Below are positions 16,384 through 36,180 of a stretch of DNA of 64,000 nt, in pieces. Source of the DNA: Streptomyces sp. JB150 (GTDB lineage Bacteria > Actinomycetota > Actinomycetes > Streptomycetales > Streptomycetaceae); the NCBI RefSeq assembly GCF_011193355.1, contig NZ_CP049780.1:755686-819685 (forward strand), written 5' to 3'. Position numbers and translations under genes: made by a program. Each line of letters starts with the position of its first letter. The stretch's first letter is position 1. Under the pieces are notes generated by a model. The model worked only from the letters and a program-made list of their open reading frames with translations. It searched no databases and was not told the origin of the DNA.

Positions 16384-16412
16384 CCTCTCCGGCCGGACAC
16401 CCACCGCCCCCC

Positions 16413-16437: not shown

Positions 16438-16490
16438 CGTTGACGCACTCAGACCTCACCTCTACCTTCTGGTCGACTACTCGTACAGCA

Positions 16491-16504
16491 TTCGACATAC
16501 CGAA
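16491..16504. promoter_or_regulatory. TTCG-N6-CGAA palindrome upstream of GH127 gene
   Basis: TTCGACATACCGAA lies in a locally AT-rich stretch about 31 bases before the GH127 start codon, where a sugar-responsive repressor would be expected to bind. Only four bases pair per arm, so support is weak. Confidence 0.3.
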
Positions 16505-16534
16505 CATGCCGAGTCGATCAGAGGAGCAGCACCC

Positions 16535-19387
16535 ATGGCCCCGCCCCTCTCCCGCCGCGCCCTTCTCCAGTCGGCGATCCTCGCCGCGGCCACCCCCGGC
16601 CTCGCCGCCACCTCCACGCCGGCCACCGCGTCCGCCGGGGGCGCCACCACCGCCACCACCGCCACCACCACGACCCCCGCAACCACCCTCCCCGCACCGG
16701 CCGCCTGGAAGCTGCGCCCCTTCGCCCTCAAGGACGTGACCCTCGGACCGGGCCTCTTCGCCGGCAAGCGGCAGCTGATGCTCGACCACGCCCGCGGCTA
16801 CGACGCGAACCGGCTGCTCCAGGTCTTCCGCGCCAACGCCGGCCTCCCGACCGGCGGCGCGGTCGCCCCCGGCGGCTGGGAGGGCCTGGACGGGGAGGCC
16901 AACGGCAACCTCCGCGGCCACTACACCGGCCACTTCCTCACCATGCTGTCCCAGGCGTTCGCGAGCACCGGCGACCAGGTGTACGCGGACCGGATCCGCA
17001 CCATGGTGGGCGCCCTGGCCGAGGTCCGCGAGGCACTGCGCCGGGACCCGGTGGTGCTGCCCGCGGCGGGCCGCTTCGGCCGGGCGGTGGAGTACGTCCG
17101 CGGCTCGTACCAGTACGTCGACCTGCCCCGCAACGTCCTCGCCGGAAGCCCGGCGATCACCCTCGCCGCCTGGGTCAAGCCCACCCACGCGAGCACGTGG
17201 GCCCGCGTCCTCGACTGCGGCGACGACACCGCCCGCTACCTGTACCTGGCCGCGCGCAGCGGCGGTGGCGCCCCGCGCTTCGCCCTCACCACCGACGGAC
17301 CCGGCGCCGAGCAGGGCATCGACGGCACCGCGCCGCTCCCCCTCGACCGGTGGAGCCACCTCGCGGTGACCCTCGCCGACGGCACCGGCACGCTGTACGT
17401 CAACGGCACCGCCGTGGCCCGCAACGCCGCCATGACCCTCACCCCGGCGAGCCTCGGCACCCCCGCCCACGCCTGGCTGGGCCGTTCCGCCTTCCCCGCC
17501 GACCCCGTCTTCGCGGGCGCCTTCGGCGGCTTCGACGTCTGGTCGCGCGCCCTGACCCCCGCCGAGATCGCCGGCCTGCAGGACAGCCGCCCCGCCGACG
17601 CCCCGGCCGGACGCGGCGACCTGGCCTCGTACGCCTTCGACGAGACCGACGGGTCCACCTTCGCCGACGCCTCCGGCCGCGGCCTGACCGCCACCCTGCG
17701 CCGCACCTGGGGCGGACCGAGCCATCCCGGCTTCCTCGCGGCGTACCCCGAGACCCAGTTCATCGAGCTGGAGTCGATGACCCGCGGCGACTACACCCGC
17801 GTCTGGGCGCCCTACTACACCGCGCACAAGATCCTGCGCGGCCTCTTGGACGCCCACCTCGCCACCGGCGACGAGCGGGCCCTCGACCTCGCGTCCGGCC
17901 TGTGCGACTGGATGCACTCCCGGCTCTCCCGGCTGCCCGGCGCGACCCTCCAGCGCATGTGGGGCATCTTCTCCAGCGGCGAGTTCGGCGGCATCGTCGA
18001 GGCGGTCGTCGACCTGCACGCCCTCACCGGCAAGCCCGAACACCTCGCCCTGGCAAGGCTGTTCGACCTCGACCGGCTCATCGACGCGTGTGCCGCGAAC
18101 ACCGACGTCCTCGACGGACTGCACGCCAACCAGCACATCCCCATCTTCACCGGATACGTCCGGCTGTACGACGCGACGGGCGAGGAGCGCTACCTCACCG
18201 CCGCGAAGAACTTCTGGCGCATGGTCGTACCGCACCGCATGTACGGCATCGGCGGCACCAGCACCGGCGAGTTCTGGAAGGCGCGGGACGCCATCGCGGG
18301 CACGCTCGGCGCCACCACGGCGGAGACCTGCTGCGCCTACAACCTGCTCAAGCTGAGCCGGACCCTGTTCTTCCACGAGCAGGACCCGGCGTACATGGAC
18401 TACTACGAGCGGGCCCTGTACAACCAGGTCCTCGGCTCCAAGCAGGACAAGCCGGACGCGGAGAAGCCCCTCGTCACGTACTTCATCGGCCTCTCGCCCG
18501 GCCACGTCCGCGACTACACGCCCAAGCAGGGCACGACCTGCTGCGAGGGCACCGGCATGGAGAGCGCCACCAAGTACCAGGACTCGGTGTACTTCGCCCA
18601 GGCCGACGGCACCGCCCTCTACGTCAACCTCTTCAGCCCTTCCACCCTCACCTGGGCCGAACAGGGCGTCACCGTCACGCAGAACACCGACTACCCGCGC
18701 GAACAGGGCACCACGCTCACCGTGCGCGGCCGCACCACCGCGTTCGCGCTGAGGCTGCGCGTGCCGTCCTGGGCGACCGCCGGGTTCCGGGTGACCGTGA
18801 ACGGCCGCGCCGTCGACGGAACTCCGCGCCCCGGCAGCTATTTCACCGTGCGCCGCACCTGGCGCAGCGGCGACACCGTGCGGGTGAGCGTCCCCTTCCG
18901 GCTGCGGGTCGAGAAGGCCCCGGACGACCCGACGCTCCAGACCCTCTTCCACGGCCCCGTCAACCTGGTCGCCCGCAGCGCCTCGACGGACTACCTGACG
19001 TTCGGGCTGTACCGCAACGCCGCCCTCTCCGGCGACCTGCTGCCCACCTTCACCGCCGTGACCGGCAAGCCCCTCCACCTCACGCTGGACGGCACGGAGT
19101 TCGCCCCGTTCTTCGAGGGCACCGAGGACCCCACCCACGCGTACATCCGCCGCTCCGAACCCCGCGTGGTCTTCGGGGGCACCGACTCGGGCGTGGCCAA
19201 CCCGGCGAAGGCGGACCGCACGACACTGCTCGACGAGATCTGGGCGGGCGCGCCGTTCGCGAACAAGGGCGCGCTGGTGTCCCGGGTGCGGGCCACCGTG
19301 GACGCGTGGACGGCGGCGGGGCTGCTGAGCGCGGCGGACGGCGAGCGGATCGTGGCCACGGCGGGGAGGGCGACGTACGTCGCGTAG
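16535..19387 (+). CDS. Tat-exported glycoside hydrolase family 127 protein with inserted LamG domain
   Basis: A 950-residue extracellular enzyme. The signal has SRRALLQS and an Ala-rich core ending near TASA, which fits Tat export. After a Thr-rich linker the GH127 catalytic part begins (LKDVTLGPGLFAGK), is interrupted at about residues 175-385 by a concanavalin/LamG-like module (FGRAVEYVRGSYQYVDLP to ASGRGLTATL), and then resumes. The zinc site of the family is intact: Glu597 and Cys599 in AETCCAYNLL and Cys669-Cys670 in TTCCEGTGMES, matching the Glu-Cys...Cys-Cys set of the Bifidobacterium beta-L-arabinofuranosidase HypBA1. It probably releases L-arabinofuranose from plant glycans. ATG 16535 follows GAGGAG. 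Confidence 0.9.
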   Translation: MAPPLSRRALLQSAILAAATPGLAATSTPATASAGGATTATTATTTTPATTLPAPAAWKLRPFALKDVTLGPGLFAGKRQLMLDHARGYDANRLLQVFRANAGLPTGGAVAPGGWEGLDGEANGNLRGHYTGHFLTMLSQAFASTGDQVYADRIRTMVGALAEVREALRRDPVVLPAAGRFGRAVEYVRGSYQYVDLPRNVLAGSPAITLAAWVKPTHASTWARVLDCGDDTARYLYLAARSGGGAPRFALTTDGPGAEQGIDGTAPLPLDRWSHLAVTLADGTGTLYVNGTAVARNAAMTLTPASLGTPAHAWLGRSAFPADPVFAGAFGGFDVWSRALTPAEIAGLQDSRPADAPAGRGDLASYAFDETDGSTFADASGRGLTATLRRTWGGPSHPGFLAAYPETQFIELESMTRGDYTRVWAPYYTAHKILRGLLDAHLATGDERALDLASGLCDWMHSRLSRLPGATLQRMWGIFSSGEFGGIVEAVVDLHALTGKPEHLALARLFDLDRLIDACAANTDVLDGLHANQHIPIFTGYVRLYDATGEERYLTAAKNFWRMVVPHRMYGIGGTSTGEFWKARDAIAGTLGATTAETCCAYNLLKLSRTLFFHEQDPAYMDYYERALYNQVLGSKQDKPDAEKPLVTYFIGLSPGHVRDYTPKQGTTCCEGTGMESATKYQDSVYFAQADGTALYVNLFSPSTLTWAEQGVTVTQNTDYPREQGTTLTVRGRTTAFALRLRVPSWATAGFRVTVNGRAVDGTPRPGSYFTVRRTWRSGDTVRVSVPFRLRVEKAPDDPTLQTLFHGPVNLVARSASTDYLTFGLYRNAALSGDLLPTFTAVTGKPLHLTLDGTEFAPFFEGTEDPTHAYIRRSEPRVVFGGTDSGVANPAKADRTTLLDEIWAGAPFANKGALVSRVRATVDAWTAAGLLSAADGERIVATAGRATYVA

Positions 19388-21240: not shown

Positions 21241-21563
21241 ACCGCTCCCCCCTGAGCACCCGGCCGGATCACCCGACGCACCGGCCGGACCACCCGGCCC
21301 CGACGGCCTTCGTGTGATGTCTCCTGCGCCGAGCGTAGCCGGTACACGACAACTATTGCCACCGGACAACTGTCACCCCGGTCGCGCCGGCCGCAGCCCG
21401 CCCCGCCGGACGCACGGCACAACCCTCAGGAAAGCGGCGTTCCCACTCGCGCGTGGCCCTACGATGGCCCGGCTGGCGGTGCTTGCTCGGCGGCTCCTCG
21501 GGTACCGCGTTGGAATGTGGGTGTTGTCCTGATGGGCAGGCGTATACGGAAAGTGATGCGTTC
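21241..21563. promoter_or_regulatory. Divergent promoter region with GACAACT direct repeats
   Basis: This 323-base gap holds no gene. GACAACTATTGCC (21348-21360) and GACAACTGTC (21365-21374) repeat the GACAACT core 17 bases apart; the first resembles the 13-base palindrome upstream of rsbR (27977-27989; nine of twelve aligned bases agree). They are candidate binding sites for one of the three MarR proteins of the island. Confidence 0.4.
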
Positions 21564-22070
21564 GTGACTGGTCTCGACGGTTCCGGGGACGACCCGGCAG
21601 GCGGGCCGGGCGACGATGCCATGGCCCTCGCCCTGCAGATCGCCGATGCCGTGGACGGTCTCACGACCCTGTGGTCGATTGCCGCGCAGGAAGCGCGGAT
21701 GCGACTGTCGCCGCACCAGTTACGGGCCCTGCAGATCCTGAGAGCCGCGCCGGGGCTCAACCTGACCACTCTGGCGGAGAGCATGGACATAGGGATGCCC
21801 ACCGCCAGCCGCCTGTGCGACCGGCTGGAGGCGGCCGGTCTGCTGGAACGCGTACTGCACCCGTTGAAGCGCCGGGAGGTACAGCTGAACCTCACGGGCC
21901 ACGGTCAGCAGGTCCTCGACGAGGTGGCCTCCCGCAGGACACGGGCCCTCGCCGAGGCCCTCGCCGGCATGGAGACGGACGAGCGGGAAGCACTGGCCCG
22001 CGGTATGCGCGGGTTCCTGCAGGCGCAGGACGGCCTTCTGCCGGGCGCCGACCGGCCCTACGCCCCGTGA
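21564..22070 (+). CDS. MarR-family regulator (island copy 1)
   Basis: A 168-residue winged-helix protein. The DNA-binding part spans about residues 50-115, with LRALQILRAAPGLNLTTLAE, a recognition helix around MPTASRLCDRLEAAGLLER, and a wing at LKRREVQLNLTGHG; helices at both ends would form the dimer. GTG at 21564 was chosen since GGAAAG lies upstream. The recognition helix S/T-RLCDRL is shared with two other MarR genes within 9 kb, which are clearly paralogues. Its stop overlaps the stop of the convergent GAF/PP2C gene by 13 bases. A role in controlling the phosphatase or stressosome genes is inferred from position. Confidence 0.9.
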   Translation: MTGLDGSGDDPAGGPGDDAMALALQIADAVDGLTTLWSIAAQEARMRLSPHQLRALQILRAAPGLNLTTLAESMDIGMPTASRLCDRLEAAGLLERVLHPLKRREVQLNLTGHGQQVLDEVASRRTRALAEALAGMETDEREALARGMRGFLQAQDGLLPGADRPYAP

Positions 22071-23275
22071 TCCGGCCGGTCCGCCCCACCGGCCGGCCGG
22101 CCGGTCCAGTCCAGGCACACCACGGCGGCGTCGGACATCAGTTCGCTGCTGCCGAAGTGCTCGATCATCCCGGCGACCACCGCACGCGCCGTCTCGTGCG
22201 GGGGTGAGGGGCGAGTGGCGCTGAGCACCTGGCGCAGCGCCTGTTCACCGAACGCGTCCCCGGCAGCGGAGCGGGTGTCGTGCACGCCGGTGCTCACCAC
22301 GATCAGCCGGTCGCCGGGCTCGACCTGGAAGGTCTGCTCCTCGTACAGCGTCTCCTCGAACATGCCGAGCGGGAGCTGCGCCTCCAACGCGATGCGCTCC
22401 GTGTGACCATCCCGCTGACGGAACAGTTGCGGCGACCCGGCGTCGACCGCGGCCACCCTGCCGGTGGCCAGGTCGAATCTCAGCAGCAGTGTGGAGGCGT
22501 ACGCCTTGCCGCCGTACTGGGCGAAGACCGCCTGGTCGGCGAGCGAGGCCTGGTCGGCCAGGCCTATGCCTGCCCGGCGGGCGTTGCGCAGGGCACCGAC
22601 GGTGAGGCTGGTCAGCAGCGAGGCCTCGATGCCCTGGCCCATGCCGTCGGTGACCGTGAGGACGAGGTGGTCGGCGCTCGTGGACCAGTCGAAGTTGTCG
22701 CCGCCGATGGCGTAGGCCGGTTCCAGGTGGGCACCGATCGTGTATTCCGCGCGGGCGCAGCCGCGTCCCGGCAGCAGCTGCCACTGCATCTCGGCGGCGA
22801 GGGTGAGGCGCCGGGTGCGCCGGGCCTGGAGGTAGAGGTCGGTGTCCCGGCCCGCGGTGGCGACCTCGTGGCCGAGTGCGGTGGCGAACTCCGACAGCTG
22901 GAGCACGGTGTCCGGATCCGCCGCCCCTGCGGGCAGCCGCACGCTGAGGATGCCGAGGCGGTCGCCGCGCACCGTGATGGGCAGGTGCACCAGGTGGCCG
23001 GCGCGCTCGCGCAGCACCTCGACCACCGGGCTCTGGGCGACGAAGGCGCTGCCCGCCGGGCCGTCCTGAGCGGGCACCGGGGAGCCGGTGTGCGGCAGAT
23101 GGGAGACCGGTTGCAGCACCGACAGGCCGTAGTCGGCCAGCAGCAGCTTCACCTCTTGGGCGCCGGCCCGGTCGGCGAGCAGGCGGCGCGCGGTGGCGAC
23201 CAGAGCGTGGGGTGGGGCTGCGCGCAGCTGCGCCTCCGCCGAGGGAAGCGGATCAGAGATATTCACGGCATCCAC
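22058..23275 (-). CDS. GAF-like/SpoIIE-type PP2C protein (copy A) with altered metal site
   Basis: A 405-residue cytosolic protein. Residues about 1-145 form a GAF-like sensor (LLLADYGLSVLQPVSHLPHT, then VHLPITVRGDRLGILSVRLP); about 165-395 form a SpoIIE/RsbU-type phosphatase. The first metal motif reads GGDNFD and the second DGMGQG, both with Asp, but the third, normally TDG, is STGV, and the C-terminal DD is SD. The family dephosphorylates STAS antagonists; loss of an Asp ligand makes activity uncertain. Paired and convergent with a MarR gene. A paralogue sits at 28038-29228. The ATG at 23273-23275 starts MDAVNISD. Confidence 0.85.
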   Translation of the reverse strand: MDAVNISDPLPSAEAQLRAAPPHALVATARRLLADRAGAQEVKLLLADYGLSVLQPVSHLPHTGSPVPAQDGPAGSAFVAQSPVVEVLRERAGHLVHLPITVRGDRLGILSVRLPAGAADPDTVLQLSEFATALGHEVATAGRDTDLYLQARRTRRLTLAAEMQWQLLPGRGCARAEYTIGAHLEPAYAIGGDNFDWSTSADHLVLTVTDGMGQGIEASLLTSLTVGALRNARRAGIGLADQASLADQAVFAQYGGKAYASTLLLRFDLATGRVAAVDAGSPQLFRQRDGHTERIALEAQLPLGMFEETLYEEQTFQVEPGDRLIVVSTGVHDTRSAAGDAFGEQALRQVLSATRPSPPHETARAVVAGMIEHFGSSELMSDAAVVCLDWTGRPAGGADRPDHGA

Positions 23276-23318
23276 TCTCTCGCGGGGTGAGCTCCACGCT
23301 ACCGCGCCGGAGACCGGT

Positions 23319-25106
23319 TCAAGCGGGTTCGCTTCTTCCTGCCGGATCGGTGTGCGTTTCGTCCTCCTGCCGTCGCGCCGGAACGTGGCACAGGAGCAGG
23401 CACACGTCGTCGTCGCGCGCGGAGTCGTGCAGGAGTCGCGTGACCACGGTGTCGGCGGCCGCGTCGAGGTCCTGTTCCGTCTCCGGGGCAGGCAGTGCGC
23501 CCAGCGCGTCCGCCAGGCGTTCGATGCCGGGGTCGATGCCGAGCGCCCGCCGTTCGACCAGCCCGTCCGTGTACAGCATCAGGGTGCCGCCGGGTGGCAG
23601 GGCGGTGGTGTGATCGGCGTAGACGCAGTCGAGGGGGATGCCGAGCATGGGGCCGGGTCTGTCCCGCAGGACGCTCACGCCGCCGTCGTCGGAGCACACG
23701 ATGGCGGGCGGGTGGCCGGCCGACGCCCAGACCGCTTCCCGCTTCCCCGGGGAGACGCGGGCGATGAGCGCGGTGGCGTACAGCTCCGGTTGCAGGTGGC
23801 GCAGCATGCGGTGGAGCAGTGTCAGGATTGCGCCGGGGGTGGCGTTGTCGATGGCGTAGGCGCGCAGGGCCGTGCGCAGTTGCCCCATCACGATGGCGGC
23901 GTGCAGCCCGTGGCCGGTGACGTCCCCGATGACGGTCAGCAGGCTTCCGTCGGGCTGCAGGAAGGCGTCGTACCAGTCGCCGCCGATGTTCATCCCCCGG
24001 GTGGCGGGCAGGTAGCGCGCGGCCAGCTGCAGACCGGGTACGGCGGGCAGGTCGGTGAGCTGGGCGCGTTGCAGGCTCTCGGCGGTGTCGCGGTACTGCT
24101 CGTAGCGGCGGGCGTGGTCGAGGGCGATGCCCGCCCTGCGGGCGAGTTCGATCAGCATGATGCAGGTGTCGGCGTCGAAGCGCGGTCCGGGCGCGGTGAG
24201 CGTGAGGACGCCCAGCAGACGGTGCGGCCCGAACGGGATGGCCAGCAGGGGCCGGTCGGGCGACAGCGCCGAGGGAGGAAGGTCGTCCACGCCGGGCAGA
24301 CGGCCGGGATGCGGGCCCGCGTGCTGGGGGCGGTCCGTGCGGGCGGCGGTCACGGCGGCCGCCGCATGCTCGCGTCTGCGGTGCCCTGGCTCGTCGTCCT
24401 CGTCGAAGAGCCAGACGTCGATGTGTTCGGCGTAGTCCGGTACCAGCAGGTCGGAGACGCGGCGGACGATGGCCTCGGGGCTGAGGGAGACGGCGATGGT
24501 GGCGCTGGCGTCGGCGAGGAAGGTCAGCAGGCGGCGCGCCCGCTCGGTCTCGTCGCGCGCGGCACGCTCGGCCTCCAGCAGATCCCGCTGGGCCCGGGCG
24601 GTGGCTTCCAGCTCGGAGTGCAGCGCCAGGACGCCCTGGTTGGTGTGGTGCAGCTCTTCGCGGTGAAGCCGGACCAGGCACTGCTGTTCCTCGAGGAGGT
24701 CCAGGGCTGTCGCGGTGTGTGCGTCGGCGCGCAGGAGGGCCTCGGGCAGCAGCGGGCCGGCCACGTCACGGTCGAGGGGCGGCAGGGGCGTCGGGTGCCG
24801 CAGGTGCGGCAAGGGGCAGACGAGGGCCGGCTCGCCCTCCGGGTCCGCCGCAGACGCGTCGATGGGCCGGAGGGAGACCTCCAGTCGGCTCCCTTGGGCC
24901 GCGGTGTCGTTCCGGAGGCAGCGTACGAGTTCCCACTCGCCGCCCTGGCTCAGGCAGTGGCGCAGGCGCGCGCTGAGATCCGAGAGGAAGCGTGCCCGCT
25001 CCAGGGTGGGGGGCTGGCCGTCGGTGACGGTCCGGTCGAGGGCGGCGCGGGCCAGGGCCGCGTCGGTGACCGTCGTGATCTTCCAGACGTCGTGCGTCGC
25101 GGTCAC
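23319..25106 (-). CDS. RsbU-like phosphatase: coiled coil, GAF and PP2C/SpoIIE domains
   Basis: A 595-residue protein and the last gene of the stressosome operon. An N-terminal region of unclear fold (about 1-130) is followed by a long coiled coil (ALDLLEEQQCLVRLHREELH to about residue 200), a GAF domain (about 200-345) and a complete PP2C/SpoIIE phosphatase (about 370-570) with intact motifs GGDWYD, GDVTGHG, YTDGL and ARDDD. It should remove phosphate from a Ser/Thr-phosphorylated STAS protein, as RsbU does in Bacillus when bound by RsbT. The GTG start at 25104-25106 overlaps the upstream TGA by four bases. Confidence 0.88.
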   Translation of the reverse strand: MTATHDVWKITTVTDAALARAALDRTVTDGQPPTLERARFLSDLSARLRHCLSQGGEWELVRCLRNDTAAQGSRLEVSLRPIDASAADPEGEPALVCPLPHLRHPTPLPPLDRDVAGPLLPEALLRADAHTATALDLLEEQQCLVRLHREELHHTNQGVLALHSELEATARAQRDLLEAERAARDETERARRLLTFLADASATIAVSLSPEAIVRRVSDLLVPDYAEHIDVWLFDEDDEPGHRRREHAAAAVTAARTDRPQHAGPHPGRLPGVDDLPPSALSPDRPLLAIPFGPHRLLGVLTLTAPGPRFDADTCIMLIELARRAGIALDHARRYEQYRDTAESLQRAQLTDLPAVPGLQLAARYLPATRGMNIGGDWYDAFLQPDGSLLTVIGDVTGHGLHAAIVMGQLRTALRAYAIDNATPGAILTLLHRMLRHLQPELYATALIARVSPGKREAVWASAGHPPAIVCSDDGGVSVLRDRPGPMLGIPLDCVYADHTTALPPGGTLMLYTDGLVERRALGIDPGIERLADALGALPAPETEQDLDAAADTVVTRLLHDSARDDDVCLLLCHVPARRQEDETHTDPAGRSEPA

Positions 25107-26188
25107 GGGTGCCCGCTCGCGCGGGCGGGCACCAGGACGGCCACGCTCGTGTCGTCGCGCAGGGGACTCGCCGCGCTGCCGGCGTCCCGCAGGACCATCG
25201 CGGCGGTCACGGCCGGGTCGTGGTCGAGGAGGCCGCGGTCCTGTGGCGGCGACCAGCGTCCGGGCAGCCCGTCGCTGTGCAGGATGAGCAGACTGTCCGG
25301 CCGCCAGGACGACTGCTGCACGGGCACGGTGGCCGGGAAGTGGGCTCCCACGATGCCGGGACGGGAGATGAGCGGTTGCCAGCCCTCGTCGGTGCGCAGC
25401 CTGGCGCCGATGTTGCCGACTCCGGCGTAGGAGAGCCGGTGCGTGGCCTCGTCGAGCTGCGCCACGCCGACCGCAGCACCGCGGGTGCCGCCCAGCGCGG
25501 AGTGCAGGAGGCGCAGCAGGCCGGCCGCGGGAAGGCCGGCGTTCCTGCGCAGTTCCCTCACGGCGGTGGCGGACGCCTCCGCCGCCTTCCGGCCGTGCCC
25601 GAGTCCGTCGGTCAGCATCAGGGTGACCAGTGATCCGGAGCGCACCCACGCGAAAGCGTCACCGGAGTACTCGGCGTGCGCGAGCGCGGTGGTGATCCCC
25701 CCGGCGCGAGCGCTCCCGTACGCCGGGGCCTGGCGGGCGGACGCGGCGACAGGCGGTCGCGCCGGGCTGATGCGCGCCACGGCGACCGTGCCCGTTCCGG
25801 GCCGGCTGTGCAGGCCGAAGTCACGGGTTATCCGCAGGCAGGTGCCCAGGCCGGCGCCGAGCGAGGAGGGCGCGGTGGTGAATCCGTCCCGCAGCGCCTC
25901 GAGGACGTCACGGATGCCCGGCCCGTGGTCGAGCGAGGTGATCTGCACGCAGCGCGCGGTCTCTGCCCGCGGGTCCGCCCGGGTGTCGGAGGGGCCGGTC
26001 AGGTTGATGACGATGCGGCCCTCGCTCGCGTGCTTGACGAGGTTGGTCGCCAGTTCGGTGGCGACGAGGGCCGCGACCGCGGTGCAGTGCGCGTCCAGAC
26101 CGATGTGGCCGCAGGCGTCCTCAGCGGCCACGCGGACGTCCCGGACCCGGGTCGAGTCCTGCACCGGGATCTCCCAGACCCTGCTCAT
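25103..26188 (-). CDS. RsbT-like kinase fused to RsbX-like PP2C phosphatase
   Basis: A 361-residue fusion. Residues about 1-140 are a HATPase domain (N-box VATELATNLVKHA, G1 SLDHGPGIRDV, G2 SSLGAGLGTCLRI) as in RsbT anti-sigma-type kinases; residues about 160-355 are a small PP2C domain of RsbX type with SGDAFAW, LTDGLGHG, HSDGLPG and LRDDTS all present. One chain could thus both phosphorylate and dephosphorylate stressosome STAS proteins. In Bacillus subtilis these are separate proteins. ATG at 26186-26188 overlaps the upstream rsbT stop (ATGA), and the end overlaps the next gene. Confidence 0.88.
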   Translation of the reverse strand: MSRVWEIPVQDSTRVRDVRVAAEDACGHIGLDAHCTAVAALVATELATNLVKHASEGRIVINLTGPSDTRADPRAETARCVQITSLDHGPGIRDVLEALRDGFTTAPSSLGAGLGTCLRITRDFGLHSRPGTGTVAVARISPARPPVAASARQAPAYGSARAGGITTALAHAEYSGDAFAWVRSGSLVTLMLTDGLGHGRKAAEASATAVRELRRNAGLPAAGLLRLLHSALGGTRGAAVGVAQLDEATHRLSYAGVGNIGARLRTDEGWQPLISRPGIVGAHFPATVPVQQSSWRPDSLLILHSDGLPGRWSPPQDRGLLDHDPAVTAAMVLRDAGSAASPLRDDTSVAVLVPARASGHP

Positions 26189-26631
26189 GAGGCGCCCGTG
26201 CGCGGGGCGGGCAGGCCGGGTGGCCAGTCCGTGACGGTGACGGTGGTGCCGTGGCCGGGACGGCTTTCGACGACCAGCTCCTGCACCAGCCGCTTGGCTC
26301 CGCTCAGTCCGAGCCCCAGGCCGCCGCCGGTGCTGTAGCCGTCGGTCATGGCCAGCTCGATGTCCCTGATACCGGGACCGGAGTCGACGAAGCTCAGCCG
26401 CAGGCCGCGGGTGCGGCCGTCCTGCATGAGCCACATCTCCATGTACCCGCCGCCGCCGTGCACGAGTGTGTTGCGGGCCAGTTCACTGGCCGCGGTGACC
26501 AGTTTCGTCTGCTGGACCAGACCGAAACCGATGGCGGCAGCGGCCTGGCGCACCTCCTGGCGCACCCAGGCGAGATCGGCGTCCGAGCCGATGGGAAGAC
26601 GGGTGGTCGGCGCGAGCGAGGCATCCATCAC
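26185..26631 (-). CDS. rsbT: RsbT-type serine/threonine kinase (switch kinase)
   Basis: A 148-residue HATPase-fold switch kinase. The N-box ASELARNTLVHGGGG, the G1 box FVDSGPGIRD and the Gly-rich lid GGGLGLGLSGAKRLV are intact. In the stressosome it is held by RsbR/RsbS, phosphorylates both on stress, and then leaves to activate an RsbU-type phosphatase. The start is GTG at 26629-26631, overlapping the rsbS stop; an ATG directly follows. Order R-S-T with four-base overlaps matches classical stressosome modules. Confidence 0.93.
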   Translation of the reverse strand: MMDASLAPTTRLPIGSDADLAWVRQEVRQAAAAIGFGLVQQTKLVTAASELARNTLVHGGGGYMEMWLMQDGRTRGLRLSFVDSGPGIRDIELAMTDGYSTGGGLGLGLSGAKRLVQELVVESRPGHGTTVTVTDWPPGLPAPRTGAS

Positions 26632-27047
26632 GCACCCTCTTCCGCATGAGCGGGGGACGACCCCGAGGGAGCCCGGCCGAGCAGCGCCAGTGCCCGCCCG
26701 ACGTCCAGCGCGGTGTCCAGGCCGGGCAGGGTGAGCCCCAGTTCGACCAGGGTCATGGCCACTGCCGGACGCATGCCGGCCAGTACGGTCCCGGTGGCCA
26801 GCAGCCGGGCGCTCGCGGCGATCTCGGACAGGACCCGTCCGAGGAAGGAGTCGACGATCTCGACACCGGAGATGTCGATCACGACACCGCCCACCGGCAC
26901 CGGGTTGTGCGCGATGCGATGGGTGATGTCGTACTGGAGCCGTTCGGCCTCCCCGTCGTGCAGTTCCCCCCGGAGGGTGATCAGCAGGACGTCCCCCAGC
27001 GCCAGGACCGGCACCGAGTCGCCTTGGCCCGCGGAGGCCGCGGTCAC
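26628..27047 (-). CDS. rsbS: RsbS-type STAS stressosome scaffold protein
   Basis: A 139-residue single STAS domain. The phosphorylation loop reads DISGVEIVDSFLG, placing the conserved serine at about residue 67, equivalent to Ser59 of Bacillus RsbS. With RsbR it should form the large stressosome shell that sequesters RsbT. An Ala/Pro-rich tail of about 20 residues ends the protein. GTG at 27045-27047 overlaps the rsbR TGA by four bases; the open frame continuing upstream overlaps rsbR and is not used. Confidence 0.93.
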   Translation of the reverse strand: MTAASAGQGDSVPVLALGDVLLITLRGELHDGEAERLQYDITHRIAHNPVPVGGVVIDISGVEIVDSFLGRVLSEIAASARLLATGTVLAGMRPAVAMTLVELGLTLPGLDTALDVGRALALLGRAPSGSSPAHAEEGA

Positions 27048-27922
27048 CGCGAACTCGCTCCTGCGACCGGGCGTGGGGAGACCGCGATGCCCTGCTCGGC
27101 GAGCGCGTACGCCAGGGCGTCCGCCAGACCGGCCCGCGTGACGATCGTCCCGAGGTCGATGCCGAGGTGGACGATGGTTTGCGCGATCGCCGGCCGGATC
27201 CCCGAGACGACGCATTCCGCGCCCATCAGCCGGGCCGCGGCGACCGTCTTCATCAGGTGCTGCGCCACGAGCGAGTCGACCGTCGGCACACCGGTGATGT
27301 CGAGGATGGCGTAGCGGGCCCGCTCGTGCACGATCGCCTCCAGGAGGCTCTCCATCACGATCTGGCTGCGGGCGCTGTCCAGGGTGCCGATCAGCGGGAC
27401 GGCGACGATGTTCTCCCACAGTTTGATGACCGGGGTGGCCACCTCCAGCAGCTGCTGGCGCTGCCGGGCGATCAGCTCTTCACCCGAGCTGACCGTGGTC
27501 TCCATGACCACCAGGCGCAGCGTGCCGAGCAGGACGGTGAGGGAGAGCGTCACGTCGTGCGCGTGCGCGCTGTCGGTGCCCTCGTACGCGGAGCGCAGCA
27601 GCGCGGCCACGGGCTCGCGCAGACCGGCGACCTCGCCGGCGATCTGGGCCGGGGTGAATCCGGACTTGGCGCGGGAGGCCGCCATCCGGCCGAGCTGGTC
27701 TCTCACCGTGTCGAAGCCCGGCGCCCGGAGGTCTTCCAGCCGTCCTGAGCGGGCCACGTCCGCCAGGGCGTCGACCACGGCCTTGCACGCGTCCACCGCC
27801 TCGTCGCGGGACACGGTGAAGACGGTGCGGAAGAGCGCGGTGTCCGCCCAACGCTGGGCGATCTGCTCTCGGCGCCGTTCCAGGAAGCTTCCCAGCTCCT
27901 GTGCCACATCCGGATCCTGCAC
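27044..27922 (-). CDS. rsbR: RsbR-type stressosome sensor protein
   Basis: About 292 residues. The N-terminal half is an all-helical globin-like sensor of RsbR type (LGSFLERRREQIAQRWADTA...), and the C-terminal half is a STAS domain beginning VPLIGTLDSARSQIVMESLL. The Thr in GTLD corresponds to Thr171 of Bacillus RsbRA, and GVPTVDSLVAQHL carries Ser at the Thr205 position. It would sense a signal through its N-domain and co-assemble with RsbS. Two GTG codons compete, 27928 and 27922; the second has better spacing from AGGGAG. First gene of a five-gene operon with a perfect 13-base palindrome upstream. Confidence 0.92.
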   Translation of the reverse strand: MQDPDVAQELGSFLERRREQIAQRWADTALFRTVFTVSRDEAVDACKAVVDALADVARSGRLEDLRAPGFDTVRDQLGRMAASRAKSGFTPAQIAGEVAGLREPVAALLRSAYEGTDSAHAHDVTLSLTVLLGTLRLVVMETTVSSGEELIARQRQQLLEVATPVIKLWENIVAVPLIGTLDSARSQIVMESLLEAIVHERARYAILDITGVPTVDSLVAQHLMKTVAAARLMGAECVVSGIRPAIAQTIVHLGIDLGTIVTRAGLADALAYALAEQGIAVSPRPVAGASSR

Positions 27923-27976
27923 CTGCACCGTCTCCCTGTTGCGAGCCTCACGGCCTGCCGAGACAGCAAACCATCG

Positions 27977-27989
27977 AGCAATTATTGCT
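27977..27989. promoter_or_regulatory. Perfect palindrome upstream of the stressosome operon
   Basis: AGCAATTATTGCT is a perfect inverted repeat (6-base arms, central T), 55 bases before rsbR, in an AT-rich pocket. Size and symmetry suit a MarR dimer; three MarR genes are nearby. Confidence 0.55.
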
Positions 27990-28037
27990 TCATGACAAAC
28001 GTTAGCGCGCGGCAGTACGCGGAACAACACGCGATCG

Positions 28038-29228
28038 TCACAATCCCCCCGAACCGCGGTCATCGGTCCGCGGCCTGCCGCGCCAGTCCAGGCACACGAC
28101 CAGGGCGTCGTCCTCGGGCATCGCCTCGCCGCGGTGACCCGTCAGCTCCCGCAGGACGGCCCGCGGGACCTCGGCCGCGGGCAGCAGCCGGGTCGCCTGG
28201 ATGGCCCGGGCGAGCGCCGCCTCACCATAGGCTTCTCCCTTGGGTGACGCGACGGCGTGAACTCCGTCACTGACGAAGATCAGCCGGTCCCCCGGCTCCA
28301 CCCGGAAGTCCTGTGCGACGTAGTCGGTCTCCTCGAACATACCCAAGGGCAGCTGTGCGTCGAAGGCGATCCGCTCCACGACGCCGTCCCGCAGCCGCAG
28401 CAACTGGGGCGAGCCGGCGTCCACGACCTTCGCCCGGCCGGTCTCCAGGTCGAAGTCGAGCATCAGGATGGACAGATAGCGGCGTCCCCGGTAGTGGGCG
28501 TAGACGGCCTGGTCTGCCAGGGCCGCCTGGTCCGCGATGGAGATGCCGGCCCTGCGGGCGTTGCGCAGCGCGTTGATGGCCAGGTTCGTGAGCAGGGAGG
28601 CCTCTATGCCCTCGCCCATGCCGTTGGTGACGTACAGCATCAGCCGGTCGGCGGTCGCGGACCAGTCGAAGTTGTCGCCGAAGATCGCGTACGCCGGCTC
28701 CAGCTGGGCGCCGAGGTCGTACTCGGGCCGCGAGCTAGACCGGCCGGGCAGCAGCTGCCACTGCATCTCGGCGGCCAGGGTGAGCCGGTCCTTGCGCCGC
28801 GCCTGGAGATAGATGTCGGTGTCCCGCTCGGCGACGACCACCTCGTGACCGAGCACCTCGGCCACGTCGGCGAGTTCAGCCTCACAGCCGGGAACGGTGT
28901 TTTCGGGCAGGGTCACGGACAGCACGCCCAGCCGGTCGCCCCGCACGCTGACCGGCAGGTGCAGCCGGACCCGTCCGCCCGGCAGATCCTCACGGTGGGG
29001 CCGCTGCGCCCCGAAGGCCCGGCCGGCCGGGCTGGTGTGCACCGACACCGGCTCCAGGGTGTGCGGCAGCACGGACACGGGCTGGAGGACCGTCAGCCCG
29101 TAGTCGGCCAGGAACAGCTCGACGTCTTCCGCGGCGTACTGCTCCGTCAGTACGGCGCGGACGACTTCGAGCAACTCGTGGGGTGCCGCCCCGCGCAGAG
29201 CGCGTTCAGCGACCTCGAATCTGTTCAC
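28038..29228 (-). CDS. GAF-like/SpoIIE-type PP2C protein (copy B) with Asn in the DG motif
   Basis: A 396-residue paralogue of the protein at 22058-23275, colinear along its length (shared LFLADYGLTVLQPVSVLPHT, LTLAAEMQWQLLPGR, DAGSPQLL). The N-terminal half is GAF-like and the C-terminal half PP2C/SpoIIE. Here GDNFD is present and the third motif SDG and the final EDD are intact, but the second motif reads NGMGEG, with Asn replacing a metal-binding Asp. Activity is doubtful; it may bind rather than cleave phospho-STAS proteins. Divergent from the second MarR gene. ATG at 29226-29228. The end lies just downstream of, and converges on, the rsbR promoter region. Confidence 0.85.
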   Translation of the reverse strand: MNRFEVAERALRGAAPHELLEVVRAVLTEQYAAEDVELFLADYGLTVLQPVSVLPHTLEPVSVHTSPAGRAFGAQRPHREDLPGGRVRLHLPVSVRGDRLGVLSVTLPENTVPGCEAELADVAEVLGHEVVVAERDTDIYLQARRKDRLTLAAEMQWQLLPGRSSSRPEYDLGAQLEPAYAIFGDNFDWSATADRLMLYVTNGMGEGIEASLLTNLAINALRNARRAGISIADQAALADQAVYAHYRGRRYLSILMLDFDLETGRAKVVDAGSPQLLRLRDGVVERIAFDAQLPLGMFEETDYVAQDFRVEPGDRLIFVSDGVHAVASPKGEAYGEAALARAIQATRLLPAAEVPRAVLRELTGHRGEAMPEDDALVVCLDWRGRPRTDDRGSGGL

Positions 29229-29313
29229 TATGGGAGATACACCAATCTTTCGCGCAGCCGTGGCCGACCTGTGCGCCTAGTACGCTGACAGCCACCCCAG
29301 TGCCTGCGAGAGT

Positions 29314-29799
29314 GTGACAGTGACTGCCTTCCGCCGCCGCCCTGAGCCCGAAGAGGTCGCACGTGTGACCACCACGGCAGTCGAGCTGCTGGAGGTCGTA
29401 TGGGGCCGGACCTCCACCGCTCCCACTTCCGCGTCCCAGTTGCGCGTTCTGCACATCCTGGAACACCACGACGGCGTCAACCTGCGTACGCTCACCGAGC
29501 TGCTCGCCTCCACGCCCCCGTCCACCAGCCGGCTGTGCGACCGGCTGCAGGCGGCCGGCTTCGTCGAGCGAGAGGCGAGCCCGCAGGACCGGCGTGAGGT
29601 ACGGCTGCGTCTGAGCAGCCGCGGCCGGGCGTTCCTCGCGGACCTGCGCACCCGCAGGGAACGGGAACTGCGGAGGGTTCTGGCGGACATGCCCGCCGCC
29701 GAGCGGACCGCGCTGCTGGAGGGCCTGGAATCGTTCTGCGCCGCGGCGGCGGCACAGATACACGGCGAGACACCGGACTCCGGAAGCCGGACCGCCTGA
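29314..29799 (+). CDS. MarR-family regulator (island copy 2)
   Basis: A 161-residue winged-helix regulator, paralogous to copy 1. HTH and wing span about residues 40-105: LRVLHILEHHDGVNLRTLTE, TPPSTSRLCDRLQAAGFVER, DRREVRLRLSSRG. GTG at 29314; an in-frame GTG lies at 29320. Divergent from PP2C copy B with 85 bases between, the mirror image of the copy 1/PP2C A pair. No obvious palindrome lies in that gap, so its operator may be elsewhere. Confidence 0.9.
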   Translation: MTVTAFRRRPEPEEVARVTTTAVELLEVVWGRTSTAPTSASQLRVLHILEHHDGVNLRTLTELLASTPPSTSRLCDRLQAAGFVEREASPQDRREVRLRLSSRGRAFLADLRTRRERELRRVLADMPAAERTALLEGLESFCAAAAAQIHGETPDSGSRTA

Positions 29800-30086
29800 G
29801 CCCGCCTTCGCGGCTCCCGCCCCGCCGTCGCGCCATGCCGGACACGACCAGCACACGGAGCGACCTCCGCCCACCGGAGCATTCCAGGTCCTTCCCCGCG
29901 CACATCCGACACCGCTCACTTTGTTGCCTCACGACCATTGTTGTCAATCAACAACAGTTGCCTTGGGGTTTCCCTCTGAGGTCGGTTTACCCGCTTTCTG
30001 GCAGTTCGGCAGTTCGAAGGCGGTTGTCCGGCGCGTCCTGTCCGCGCCTGCGGGCCGGTGGCCGGGCCGGGGCCGGGGCCGGGCGG
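29800..30086. other. Gene-free gap between convergent MarR genes with an AT-rich palindrome
   Basis: No gene is seen. TTGTTG (29938-29943) and CAACAA (29949-29954) form an inverted repeat around TCAAT, and on the minus strand GACAACAATGG overlaps it, resembling the GACAACT repeats at 21348. Such a site between two gene ends is unexpected; it may drive an unseen small RNA or be a relic. Confidence 0.4.
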
Positions 30087-30590
30087 TCACCGCGGCGGGC
30101 GCTCCGGCGCCTCGGGGACAGCCGGGGACGCCGGGTCCGGCGCAGGGAGGTCCGACGCAGGGAGGTCCGGCGCCGTGAAGAGATCGCACAGCTGCCCCAG
30201 GGCGTCGTGGAGGACGGCCTGGTCGGTGCCGGTGGCGGCAAGAGCCCGTCGCAGCAACAGACGGCGGTGCCTGCGGGTCGCCTCCAGCAGCCGCTCGCCG
30301 GTCCGGCTGAGCCGGATCGACACCTGCCGGCCGGCGCTGACGCGTTCGATGAGTCCCCGCTGGCCCAGCCGGTCGCACAAGCGGGTGGCCGACGACGGGC
30401 CGACTCCCATCTCCCTGGCCAGACCGGTCAGATTGCGCGCCCCCGCCTCCAGGACGAGCAGCGTACGCATCTGCTGGTCCGACACATCCGGTGCGATCTC
30501 CAGGTGCGCCTGCCGCCAGAGCTGGATCATGGCCTCCACCACCCGCTCAGCGGCGTCCACGGCGTCCACCGGCTCGGGCGTGCGGACCAT
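30087..30590 (-). CDS. MarR-family regulator (island copy 3)
   Basis: A 167-residue regulator related to copies 1 and 2, with the shared recognition helix SSATRLCDRLGQRGLIER and preceding MRTLLVLEAGARNLTGLARE. The wing is shorter (AGRQVSIRLSRTG), and a Pro/Asp-rich tail with repeated LPASDLPAPD elements ends the protein. The ATG at 30588-30590 has an excellent AAGGGGG site; the frame is open ten codons further upstream. It faces copy 2 tail to tail and lies upstream of a STAS gene on the same strand, though a 170-base gap separates them. Confidence 0.88.
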   Translation of the reverse strand: MVRTPEPVDAVDAAERVVEAMIQLWRQAHLEIAPDVSDQQMRTLLVLEAGARNLTGLAREMGVGPSSATRLCDRLGQRGLIERVSAGRQVSIRLSRTGERLLEATRRHRRLLLRRALAATGTDQAVLHDALGQLCDLFTAPDLPASDLPAPDPASPAVPEAPERPPR

Positions 30591-30763
30591 TCTGCCCCCT
30601 TCCCCAACGCCTGCGGCCATTCGCCTACCCTGCCGGAGGGCCGCTATCCGGAAGCGCCCGCCGCGGCGGTGCCGTCTCGCACAGCTGATCCCATGACCGG
30701 ACAGCCGCCGGACACGGAGCGCCGTCCGACGGCCGACGGCCCGGGCCGTGAAGGTGCGGCTGT

Positions 30764-31126
30764 TCAGTCGTCGAGGGCGTGGCTGAGGGATTCGCGGCAG
30801 TCGATGAAGGCGTCGACGCCGACGATGTTCAGGGTGCGCTTCACGGTTCCCGTCGGCGCCGCGAGACGCAGCCAGCCACCGGCCTCGCCGAGGGCCCCGT
30901 GCGCGGTGATGAGGACGTTGATGCCGCTGGAGTCCATGAAGGTGACCTGACCCATGTCGGCCACGACACGGGGGCGGGGCTCGCCGGCGGCGTCCAGGGC
31001 CTCGCGGAGGGTGTCCGCGGTGTGGTGGTCGATCTCGCCGGCCAGGGCCACCACGCGGATGCCGTCGGTTTCGGTGACCACCGCCGACAGCCTTCCGTGC
31101 TGCGCGGCGTGTTCGGCGTCCGCCAT
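30764..31126 (-). CDS. STAS-domain anti-sigma factor antagonist (RsbV/SpoIIAA type)
   Basis: A 120-residue single STAS domain. The phospho-acceptor loop reads [12 protein letters not shown], with the likely phosphoserine at residue 66, matching SpoIIAA and RsbV. When dephosphorylated by a PP2C enzyme it should bind an anti-sigma kinase and free its sigma factor. The ATG at 31124-31126 is preferred because GGTGAG lies ahead; another ATG five codons upstream has no ribosome site. It is divergent from the HATPase gene at 31338, its plausible partner. Confidence 0.9.
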
Positions 31127-31337
31127 TCGGTTCTCACCCATGGCGGTGATAGTGGCATACAACGGTCCCGTCCCGGAATCACCGCCCCGATGCCGTTCCC
31201 CTGCCGCCGTCCCGGTGTCTCGATGCCGTCCCGGTGTCTCGATGCCTCCGCTGAGGCGCCCGGTCGCCGGCCGGCCGAGGATTACGAGGCGTTGTCCACC
31301 TTCGCAGGGGTACGCGCCAGGGGTGGAGGCGACTGTG

Positions 31338-31853
31338 ATGGGATCAGTGACCGTGAGCCAGGGCGACACCACGCCGTACGGGCGCCCGCTGCGGGTGGCG
31401 CTGGACGGGGACGGCACCGTGATCGCCAAGGCCCGTCGGCTGGCCGCCGGCTTCCTCACGCAGATGCAGGCCGATCACGGCCTGCCCGTCTCGCAACGCG
31501 CCCTCGACGTCACCCGGCTCGTGGTCAGCGAGCTGGTCACCAACGCGCACAAGTACGCCCCCGGACCGATCCTGCTGAGCCTGTGCGTCATCGGCGCGGC
31601 CGTCGAGGTGCAGGTGTGGGACTCCGGCCCCGCCCTGCCCGTCGCCCGGGCCGCCGACGCCGACCGCGTCGGCCAGCACGGCCTGGAGATCGTCATGGCC
31701 GTCGCCCAGAGCGTCGAAACGCGTCGCGACCCGGTGGGCAAGCGCGTCACCGCCCGCATCGCCCTTTCCGACCTCCCCGGCGGTCCCGCGACACCGAAGA
31801 CCCGCGCAGGTGGACGACCGACCGGTTCATCTGGCGTGTCGTCGATCGGATAA
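31338..31853 (+). CDS. HATPase-domain anti-sigma-type regulatory protein
   Basis: A 171-residue ATP-binding protein of the RsbW/SpoIIAB-like HATPase_c_2 group common in Streptomyces. The N-box is [14 protein letters not shown], the G1 box VWDSGPALP, and [12 protein letters not shown] the G2 region. It would bind a sigma factor or phosphorylate a STAS antagonist. Residues after about 145 are a Pro/Thr/Gly-rich tail. ATG at 31338 follows GGAGG with 8-base spacing. Encoded head to head with the STAS antagonist gene. Confidence 0.88.
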
Positions 31854-31957
31854 ACGGGGCGATCAGGGGTACAACGGCTGATGGCTCGTGCGGTCGCGCG
31901 AGCCGGAGCAACCCCGGCAATGGGGATGTTCCCGGCATGAACGAAAGATCGATCAGT

Positions 31958-32161
31958 ATGGCCAGCGGCACCGTGAAGTGGTTCAACTCCGAAAAAGGCT
32001 TCGGCTTCATCGCCCAGGACGGCGGAGGCCCGGACATCTTCGCCCACTACTCCCAGATCAACGGCAACGGCTACCGGGAACTGACCGAAGGTGAACACGT
32101 CACCTTCGACATCGGGCAGGGCCAGAAGGGCCCGCAGGCGCAGAACATCACCCGCGCCTGA
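31958..32161 (+). CDS. CspA-family cold-shock protein
   Basis: A 67-residue OB-fold nucleic-acid chaperone with the RNP1 motif KGFGFI and an RNP2 of DIFAHY (usual VFVHF/Y). Begins [14 protein letters not shown], standard for the family. An in-frame ATG seven codons upstream (31937) exists, but the family length supports 31958. It binds single-stranded RNA and DNA and can prevent RNA secondary structure. A clear terminator follows. Confidence 0.95.
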
Positions 32162-34734: not shown

Positions 34735-36180
34735 ATGAGCGGTTCCGTCAAGGAACCTGAACAGGCATGGACAGTGGAATGTGCCCCCGGCGCATTCCCT
34801 CTGCTCGGCCACGGTATCGCCTTGTTCCGCCGGCCGCTGGCGTTTTTGAATTCTTTGCCGGCGCGCGGGGATCTGGTGGAGGTGCGGCTGGGCCCGCAGC
34901 GCGCCTGGGTCGTGTGTCATCCGGAGCTGGTGCACCGGATGCTGTTGGACGCGCAGACGTTCGACAAGGGCGGCACGCTGTACGACAGGCTCCGCTCTCT
35001 GATGGGCGACGGCGTCGTGACCTGCCCGCACGACCGGCACCGCCGGCAGCGCCGGCTCCTCCAGCCCGCCTTCCGCCCCTCCCGCGTGGCCGGCCACGCG
35101 GACCTGATGGGCGAGGAGGCCGCGTCGGTGGCCGCCACCTGGCGGGCCGGGCAGGAGGTCGACGTCAGCGCGGCCATGATGACGGTGACGGCGCGCGTGA
35201 TGAGCCGGGTGCTGTTCTCCGACTCCCTGGACGCGGCGACCCACACGGAGGTGCGGCGCTGCCTGGCCGATGTCGTGCGCGGCCTGTTCCTCCGTACGAT
35301 CGTGCCGGTCGACGCGGTCTTCGCGTTCCCGACCCCCGCGAACCGCCGCTACCGGCGCGCGGTCGACCGGCTGCACGCGATCGTGGCCGCGGCCGTCGCC
35401 GAGCGGCGGCGGGGCGCCCACCGTGACGATCTCCTGGGGACGCTGCTGGCCGCCGCCGCGAGCGACGAGGACGGCGCCGTCACCGACCGGGAGGTCCACG
35501 ACCAGCTGATCACCCTGCTGCTCACCGGCGTGGAGACCACCGCCCTGTGCCTGGCCTCGGCGTTCAGCCTGCTGGGCCGCGACCCGGAGGCCGAGGGGCG
35601 GCTGCACGCCGAGCTCGACACGGTGCTCGCCGACGGGCGCCGGCCCGGACCGGGCGATCTGCCCCGGCTCGACTACACCCGCGCGGTCGTCACCGAGACG
35701 CTGCGCCACTCCCCGCCCGGCTGGCTCTTCACCCGGATCACCACCCGCGACACGGAGCTGGCGGGCCGCCGCATCCCACGTGGGACCACGGTGCTGTACA
35801 GCCCGTACCTGCTGCACCACGACCCCGCGTCCTTCCCGGATCCCGAGCGCTTCCTCCCCGACCGCTGGCTGCCGGGCGGGACCGCCGCCGCGCGGGAGCA
35901 CGCCCTGGTGCCCTTCGCGGCGGGCAGCCGCAAGTGCCTGGGCGACGGCTTCGCCATGACGGAGGCGACGCTGGCGCTGGCGACCATCGCCGCCCGCTGG
36001 CGGCTGGCCCACCGCCCCGGCGCCTCCCGGGACACCCGGCCCGCGGTCACCCTGGGGCCGCGGACCCTCCGCATGACCTGCGCACCGCGAACGCGCGAGC
36101 GGGCCGGCACCACGCACCGTACGACGATCCGCGTACCGCATTCCCGAACGGCAGGTGAGACCGGTGTCGACGACGCATGA
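34735..36180 (+). CDS. Cytochrome P450 paired with terpene synthase
   Basis: A 481-residue soluble monooxygenase. The heme loop is FAAGSRKCLG with ligand Cys401; the I-helix reads LLTGVETTA (acid and Thr for oxygen activation) and the K-helix ExxR is ETLRHSPP. The start HGIALFRRPLAFLNSLPARG and the C-helix HRRQRRLLQPAF resemble the CYP170-type P450s that oxidise sesquiterpenes made by a neighbouring synthase. An Arg/Thr-rich tail of about 30 residues extends beyond the usual C-terminus. The ATG at 34735 follows an AT-richer leader. Its end overlaps the terpene synthase start by 17 bases, so the two are translationally coupled and likely act in one pathway. Confidence 0.92.
   Translation: MSGSVKEPEQAWTVECAPGAFPLLGHGIALFRRPLAFLNSLPARGDLVEVRLGPQRAWVVCHPELVHRMLLDAQTFDKGGTLYDRLRSLMGDGVVTCPHDRHRRQRRLLQPAFRPSRVAGHADLMGEEAASVAATWRAGQEVDVSAAMMTVTARVMSRVLFSDSLDAATHTEVRRCLADVVRGLFLRTIVPVDAVFAFPTPANRRYRRAVDRLHAIVAAAVAERRRGAHRDDLLGTLLAAAASDEDGAVTDREVHDQLITLLLTGVETTALCLASAFSLLGRDPEAEGRLHAELDTVLADGRRPGPGDLPRLDYTRAVVTETLRHSPPGWLFTRITTRDTELAGRRIPRGTTVLYSPYLLHHDPASFPDPERFLPDRWLPGGTAAAREHALVPFAAGSRKCLGDGFAMTEATLALATIAARWRLAHRPGASRDTRPAVTLGPRTLRMTCAPRTRERAGTTHRTTIRVPHSRTAGETGVDDA

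Follow-up and report, generated by a model that had tools for sequence, protein, structure and literature searches.

A Streptomyces stressosome island bracketed by MarR genes and PP2C paralogues that each lack a metal ligand

A 64,000-nucleotide stretch of the single-contig 7.32 Mb genome of Streptomyces sp. JB150 (NZ_CP049780.1, positions 755686-819685; hereafter the window, whose positions serve as coordinates throughout) carries at 21564-31853 a stressosome island that holds rsbR-rsbS-rsbT-rsbTX-rsbU, two satellite PP2C genes, three MarR genes, a STAS gene and a HATPase gene. The satellites, PP2C-A and PP2C-B, look like conserved pseudophosphatases because each of these two classes is without one metal ligand of the PP2C site while RsbU and RsbTX, encoded beside them, keep theirs. 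Since SigB-type promoter sequences precede MarR-A and the HATPase gene, coupling may in addition run from the sigma output to MarR-A, feeding back on the island. The reading put forward here, tentatively and with somewhat less than even confidence, is that of a stressosome core joined to a MarR-controlled, sigma-fed-back pseudophosphatase buffer.

The minus strand encodes, from 29228 down to 22058, PP2C-B, RsbR, RsbS, RsbT, RsbTX, RsbU and PP2C-A. Overlaps of four bases occur at the four internal junctions of the core (RsbR/RsbS 27044-27047, RsbS/RsbT 26628-26631, RsbT/RsbTX 26185-26188, RsbTX/RsbU 25103-25106), PP2C-B and RsbR, if the latter starts at its ATG, share 26 bases, and a gap of 43 bases separates RsbU from PP2C-A. 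MarR-A, on the plus strand, is convergent with PP2C-A and overlaps it by 13 bases, and MarR-B alone is divergent from its PP2C, namely PP2C-B; beyond MarR-B lie MarR-C, an RsbV-like STAS gene and an RsbW-like HATPase gene. An earlier note on this DNA had listed these genes, with four-base overlaps joining rsbR, rsbS, rsbT, rsbTX and rsbU, and every gene and all four overlaps were recovered. The left boundary that it gave, 21348, has been corrected, the start of MarR-A being probably GTG 21564 with a promoter-like site at 21481-21505.

Metal sites of the satellite PP2Cs

The two satellites are as follows.

22058..23275, minus strand: PP2C-A, a Pfam SpoIIE protein with Thr329 at the position of SpoIIE Asp746 in the alignment to solved PP2Cs
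28038..29228, minus strand: PP2C-B, a Pfam SpoIIE protein with Asn202 at the position of SpoIIE Asp628

For SpoIIE, PMC5468089 names the side chains of D628, D746 and D795, plus the carbonyl of G629, as putatively metal-coordinating. In the alignment of PP2C-B with SpoIIE, Asn202 stands opposite the Asp of the DGMG motif, and Asn rather than the active-site Asp occupies this position in 64 of 69 PP2C-B rows (Asp in 4, Gly in 1). The same residue is found in all of the best 120 of 3844 database matches to PP2C-B (window protein included), which keep the other three ligands; among the matches listed, relatives of PP2C-B that carry names are assigned to Streptomyces or Streptomycetaceae, or are named by function only. 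The PP2C-A class departs from the active site elsewhere: of its 12 rows, 11 have Ser or Thr where SpoIIE has Asp746, the one that keeps Asp being distant (35% identity), and the first Asp of the DD pair is replaced by Ala, Ser or His.

An AlphaFold model of PP2C-B (predicted local distance difference test, pLDDT, 83.7; predicted template modelling score, pTM, 0.73) has the PP2C fold, and in fold comparison its nearest structures are Rv1364c, a Sphaerobacter phosphatase and SpoIIE. The satellites had been described as GAF/PP2C paralogues, of which the PP2C half is upheld by Pfam (SpoIIE) and the GAF half is not, Pfam giving no GAF match in the satellites at E <= 0.01. At the N-terminus of the model, up to about residue 134, stands an alpha/beta domain compatible with GAF; a GAF fold for the satellite N-termini is absent from the fold-comparison list, whose rows span residues 158-386. 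In a quick tree the PP2C-A rows form one group (Shimodaira-Hasegawa-like approximate likelihood ratio test, SH-aLRT, 100) placed among PP2C-B-like rows. Given that placement, the very long branch of the outgroup (L013) and the ligand columns kept in the alignment, the order of the residue losses is not stated. One row with a degenerate site (L114_PP2CB_69, 48% identity) is inside the ligand counts and outside the tree.

The satellites are conserved and so are their ligand losses, which speaks for a role in binding. The suggestion of the earlier note that the MarR proteins set the level of competing phosphatases is accordingly doubtful, because a ligand has been lost in each satellite class. 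It could be saved if the satellites were active phosphatases with an altered metal site, in which the carbonyl of Asn served at M2 or another metal was used, and the PP2C-B fold, its other ligands, the few rows that retain Asp and the good conservation of the proteins are all compatible with this. That explanation is nevertheless unlikely, for it has to account for separate ligand losses in two classes, including the replaced DD residue of PP2C-A, next to RsbU and RsbTX proteins that keep every ligand.

The stressosome core

Five genes make up the core.

27044..28063, minus strand: RsbR, with Pfam RsbRD_N (3.6e-21) and STAS; the true start may be further downstream
26628..27047, minus strand: RsbS, a single STAS domain (Pfam STAS) with a VDSFLGR motif
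26185..26631, minus strand: RsbT, switch kinase, Pfam HATPase_c
25103..26188, minus strand: RsbTX, an RsbT-like HATPase fused to an RsbX-like PP2C domain (Pfam HATPase and SpoIIE), both sites kept
23319..25106, minus strand: RsbU-like phosphatase, with a half-HATPase-like N-terminus (weak), a 93-residue helix, a GAF-like part and PP2C

An RsbR with RsbRD-type N-domain and STAS, a single-STAS RsbS and a HATPase RsbT are thus adjacent, and the core passes every RsbRST-family sequence test made here. Metal ligands are present in the RsbX-like PP2C domain of RsbTX by Pfam and alignment, and residues N49, D87, D177, D194, D306, D345 and D346 of this protein are invariant in 33 sequences. RsbU has a complete PP2C metal site, its D377, D395, D514, D566 and D567 being invariant in 42 sequences; Pfam assigns it SpoIIE plus a GAF match that stays under the cut-off, and fold comparison supports the PP2C fold.

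Bacillus-type RsbU has an all-helical RsbT-binding N-domain, to which the N-terminus of the island RsbU gives no Pfam match. The predicted model of RsbU starts with strand-helix-helix-strand-strand-strand, followed by the 93-residue helix. Profile comparison matches this N-terminus weakly to RsbT (77%) and to the RsbTX N-terminus at 18%, the positive control of RsbTX versus RsbT reaching 99.8%; hhalign of the whole RsbU with RsbTX aligned the PP2C parts alone, and a HATPase fold for the RsbU N-terminus is absent from the fold-comparison list, whose rows span residues 344-578. The N-terminal domain and the long helix are a plausible landing place for RsbT.

Linkage of core and satellites across genomes

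A search of 199 genomes of the genus for RsbTX gave matches in 89 at E <= 1e-30, of which 53 carry a close type-1 protein (at least 55% identity; two with matches in pieces) and 36 a second type (36-43%). The 106 loci mapped by tblastn (L009-L114) comprise 100 genus-genome regions, 3 from the JB150 genome itself and 3 from a single-sequence contig scan. The linkage table holds the window and 68 loci (type-1 islands and close satellite loci); outside it stand the 38 loci of the second type or more distant (L010, L011, L013, L014, L067-L074, L088-L093, L095-L114).

At the 55 loci with full rsbRST and rsbTX (window included), RsbU is present at 51, MarR-B at 29, PP2C-B at 27, MarR-A at 24 and PP2C-A at 5. 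The neighbourhood of MarR, PP2C and rsbRST genes therefore extends beyond this strain for MarR-A, MarR-B and both PP2Cs, a point on which the earlier note had staked its functional link. Its picture of three satellites of equal standing does not survive, as just 1 of the 106 mapped loci has MarR-C as a best label. In Streptomyces antibioticus (L009) the island has RsbR, RsbS, RsbT, RsbTX, RsbU, PP2C-A, PP2C-B, MarR-A and MarR-B plus a HATPase and a STAS gene. A second island of the JB150 genome (L012, 200000-218000), with copies of MarR-B (about 77-78%), PP2C-B (83%) and RsbTX (67%), has RsbR, RsbS, RsbT, RsbTX, RsbU, MarR-B and PP2C-B and is without MarR-A and PP2C-A. MarR-A is nearly island-specific: it occurs at 43 places in 41 of the 199 genomes; of those places 39 have a satellite PP2C or RsbTX no more than 5 kb away, and the remaining 4 are on contigs with no match to either.

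Dependence between core and satellites is lopsided. Among the 199 genomes, 36 have PP2C-B at 71% identity or more and 32 of these also have the type-1 core (relatedness not removed), and the core occurs without it in 21 of the 53 type-1 genomes. The islands may also be split: 12 of 14 genomes with at least two table loci (genomes chosen in part because their PP2C-B is unlinked) have one locus with core and RsbU but incomplete satellites and another with satellites, the exceptions being G000 and G107. The core is gone or reduced at satellite loci L075-L079, L081, L082, L084 and L087, of which L079 keeps an RsbU, and RsbU is missing from satellite loci L033, L039, L041 and L042. That core and satellites both persist when apart is consistent with a link in trans, though no proof of it.

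Modules of rsbRST with the second RsbTX type also adjoin PP2C-B-like and MarR genes (L088-L093, L104, L112, L113), and these PP2C-B-like proteins mostly have Asn at the Asp628 position. At L061-L066, core loci without satellites, RsbTX matches are broken in two, the HATPase and PP2C parts being a few hundred bases apart; the open frames there, of 585-652 residues, have an inserted stretch or domain.

The MarR/PP2C pairs might instead be a separate unit that came to lie near rsbRST through genome history and has no functional contact with it, as could be read from the cores that lack satellites, from satellites that lack a core at L080-L085, and from PP2C-B relatives (63-68%) encoded where no rsb match is nearby. 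This is quite unlikely in view of the type-1 core that accompanies PP2C-B in most genomes that have it, shared descent included, and of the recurrence of PP2C-B/MarR pairs on the flanks of the second RsbTX type.

SigB-type promoter sequences

Promoters of the Streptomyces SigB family, as given in PMC8346170, its Table 2 included, have a GNNT or GTTT -35 element and a -10 element such as GGGTAT, GGGTAC or GGGTAG; SCO1566p, GCTTGG-N13-GGGTAG, is an example from the same source. The site before MarR-A fits this definition and is a predicted promoter by its sequence. Three such sites belong to the island and its edge.

21481..21505, plus strand: SigB-type promoter sequence upstream of MarR-A, GCTTGC-N13-GGGTAC
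31289..31313, plus strand: SigB-type promoter sequence upstream of the HATPase gene, from the window scan and homologous upstream regions
31848..31872, plus strand: SigB-type promoter sequence upstream of a small gene, from the window scan; small frame at 31958-32161

A broad pattern, G-N2-T-N14-16-GGGTA[CTG], and its strict C/T form were counted. Upstream of MarR-A the broad pattern occurs in 35 of 37 regions and the strict one in 21 of 37, compared with 1.20 and 0.78 in dinucleotide shuffles, and in 27 of the 35 the site is 76-90 bases upstream of the start position. Outlying sites are those of L044, 11 bases inside the start, and L034, at -209; L052 and L099 are the misses. HATPase upstream regions (window included) match in 6 of 9 cases by the broad and 2 of 9 by the strict pattern. 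None of 402 upstream regions of nine other island genes matches, a set that includes operon-internal genes and a shared intergenic region, and the shuffles carry more weight than this control. SigB-type sites on rows labelled MarR-C were excluded from the counts, the rows having proved to be other MarR genes. The small gene that follows the third site reads like a cold-shock protein by its motif.

In another reading MarR-A, driven by a SigB-type sigma, affects PP2C-A chiefly through convergent antisense transcription, and the MarR-A protein works elsewhere. This would suit the overlapping, convergent arrangement in the window and the position of MarR-A on the strand opposite the island wherever maps of linkage-table loci show it, but is highly improbable given that the protein is conserved (41-76% identity in 40 further genomes of the 199) and that most islands have no PP2C-A beside MarR-A.

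MarR genes and the PP2C-B/MarR-B intergenic region

Four features belong to this part of the island.

21564..22070, plus strand: MarR-A, Pfam MarR; start chosen from the promoter position, open reading frame extendable to 21453
29314..29799, plus strand: MarR-B, Pfam MarR; start GTG 29314 or 29320
30087..30620, minus strand: MarR-C, Pfam MarR_2; not conserved with the island
29276..29289, plus strand: conserved block CCTAGTACGCTGAC, seen when 36 intergenic regions were aligned; it lies some 30 bases upstream of MarR-B

All three proteins have the MarR winged helix above the Pfam cut-off, and the RLCDRL motif attributed to them was confirmed, a six-frame search of the window finding three copies, one per MarR protein. 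The closest relative of MarR-B in its own genome is the copy in the second island, followed by MarR-A (41%) and MarR-C (35%), with other MarR genes of the genome trailing MarR-C closely (E 6.0e-10 versus 2.2e-9).

Fifty-two PP2C-B/MarR-B intergenic regions were extracted and 36 aligned, the 16 with PP2C-B below 70% identity being left out. Two conserved blocks stand within 29228-29320, CCTAGTACGCTGAC before MarR-B and CTGTTCACGATGG at PP2C-B. The former, perhaps the MarR-B promoter, is matched exactly nowhere else in the window; the second block is not distinctive alone (25 window matches with up to 3 mismatches versus 14.7 expected).

Sigma output and neighbouring genes

Two partner-switch proteins are encoded at the far end of the island.

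30764..31126, minus strand: RsbV-like STAS anti-anti-sigma factor with a DSSG motif; Pfam STAS 2e-21 (searched from 31132), TIGR00377 over cut-off
31338..31853, plus strand: RsbW-like HATPase, Pfam HATPase_c_2 1.2e-10

No SigB/F/G-type sigma gene is present within 755686-819685; the genome has 25 SigBFG matches, 10 of them over the cut-off, and all are elsewhere. The output must therefore act in trans, as had been concluded before. Neighbours of the island at 16211-19387 and 34735-36180 are a GH127 beta-L-arabinofuranosidase with a lectin-like domain and a cytochrome P450.

A model for the island

Under stress the canonical core (RsbR, RsbS, RsbT) would let RsbT go, and RsbT would switch on RsbU, the one conventional phosphatase. 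RsbU would then dephosphorylate RsbV-like STAS proteins, local or others, whereupon a SigB-type sigma encoded elsewhere would be freed, and RsbTX would reset the core via its RsbX-like domain. PP2C-A and PP2C-B, which keep the fold and most of the site, would bind phospho-STAS partners or RsbT without turnover, and this binding would set the threshold of the switch. The level of the adjacent PP2C-B and PP2C-A would be set by MarR-B and MarR-A, presumably through repression, the direction of the effect on the switch being likewise presumed. Transcription of MarR-A by the SigB-type sigma, which would also transcribe the RsbW-like HATPase gene, would close a feedback loop.

A more specific form of this model is a serious possibility, if on balance an improbable one: a dedicated, MarR-controlled pair of pseudophosphatases would titrate the phospho-STAS substrates of RsbU, one repressor would belong to the regulon of the output sigma, the threshold would be tuned by this feedback and by MarR ligands, and the paralogues would have lost activity through different ligands.

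Several observations weigh against the buffer model. Asn is able to ligate a metal through its carbonyl oxygen, and among the PP2C-B rows that keep Asp two (L043, L045) are in type-1 islands, a further one, L114_69, being otherwise degenerate at its site. The satellites are dispensable, since so many cores lack PP2C-B (21 of 53 genomes, a figure that falls to 18 when the 67% copy in three islands is counted as PP2C-B), and the bracket at L080-L085 consists of MarR-B, PP2C-B, in some cases PP2C-A, and MarR-A with no match to RsbR, RsbS, RsbT or RsbTX. A MarR operator was sought in the 36-region alignment and by a window pattern search of the two blocks; no clear dyad was seen, and therefore no operator is claimed. 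The SigB-type pattern is absent upstream of the rsb operon and of PP2C-B/MarR-B. Finally, a genome-wide count of the exact form GSTTG-N12-14-CGGGTAC gives 5, versus 9 for the reversed control, so that the case for the promoters rests on conservation, among loci that are related.

Comparison with known systems

The Bacillus subtilis stressosome pathway, as given in PMC8346170, comprises RsbR, RsbS and RsbT with RsbU and RsbX. The island resembles it in that a single operon encodes RsbR, RsbS and RsbT together with an RsbU-type phosphatase and an RsbX-type domain, the presumed output being a SigB-type sigma; it differs in the fusion of the RsbX-like domain to a second RsbT-like HATPase, in the N-terminus of RsbU, in an operon without a sigma gene and in the MarR/PP2C satellites. 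Closer at hand, a five-gene S. coelicolor operon with RsbR/RsbS-like products begins at SCO7324, and SCO7325 acts on SigB (PMC7244524, PMC8346170, PMC9739823). The likeness here lies in those products and is one of description; the accessible parts of these sources mention no MarR/PP2C satellites at SCO7324-SCO7325, unlike the island. Disruption of two RsbR genes of S. ansochromogenes is reported to have affected antibiotics (PMC8465540). No description of the MarR/PP2C bracket, the ligand losses or the MarR-A promoter sequence was found in searches of one open-access library, most subscription journals lying outside it.

If the model is true, a conserved RsbU-like group without catalysis, encoded next to an active stressosome phosphatase and under MarR and sigma-feedback control, would offer a direct test of partner-switching thresholds. 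It would also counsel caution against naming RsbU-like proteins phosphatases from the domain alone, S. coelicolor having 44 RsbU-like homologues in the count given in PMC8346170.

Each satellite, unlike the PP2C phosphatases SpoIIE, RsbU and Rv1364c, is without one metal ligand. Among the fold matches are RssB of E. coli and TAB1, both pseudophosphatases, of which RssB acts on a sigma factor. The satellites would be like them in their proposed role, the PP2C fold being used for binding, and differ from them in that the island has two paralogous candidates beside an active-type RsbU at a stressosome locus. Judged by sequence, then, the stressosome core is of a known kind, and the MarR/PP2C bracket, with its ligand losses and SigB-type promoter sequence, is a real and conserved variation on it.

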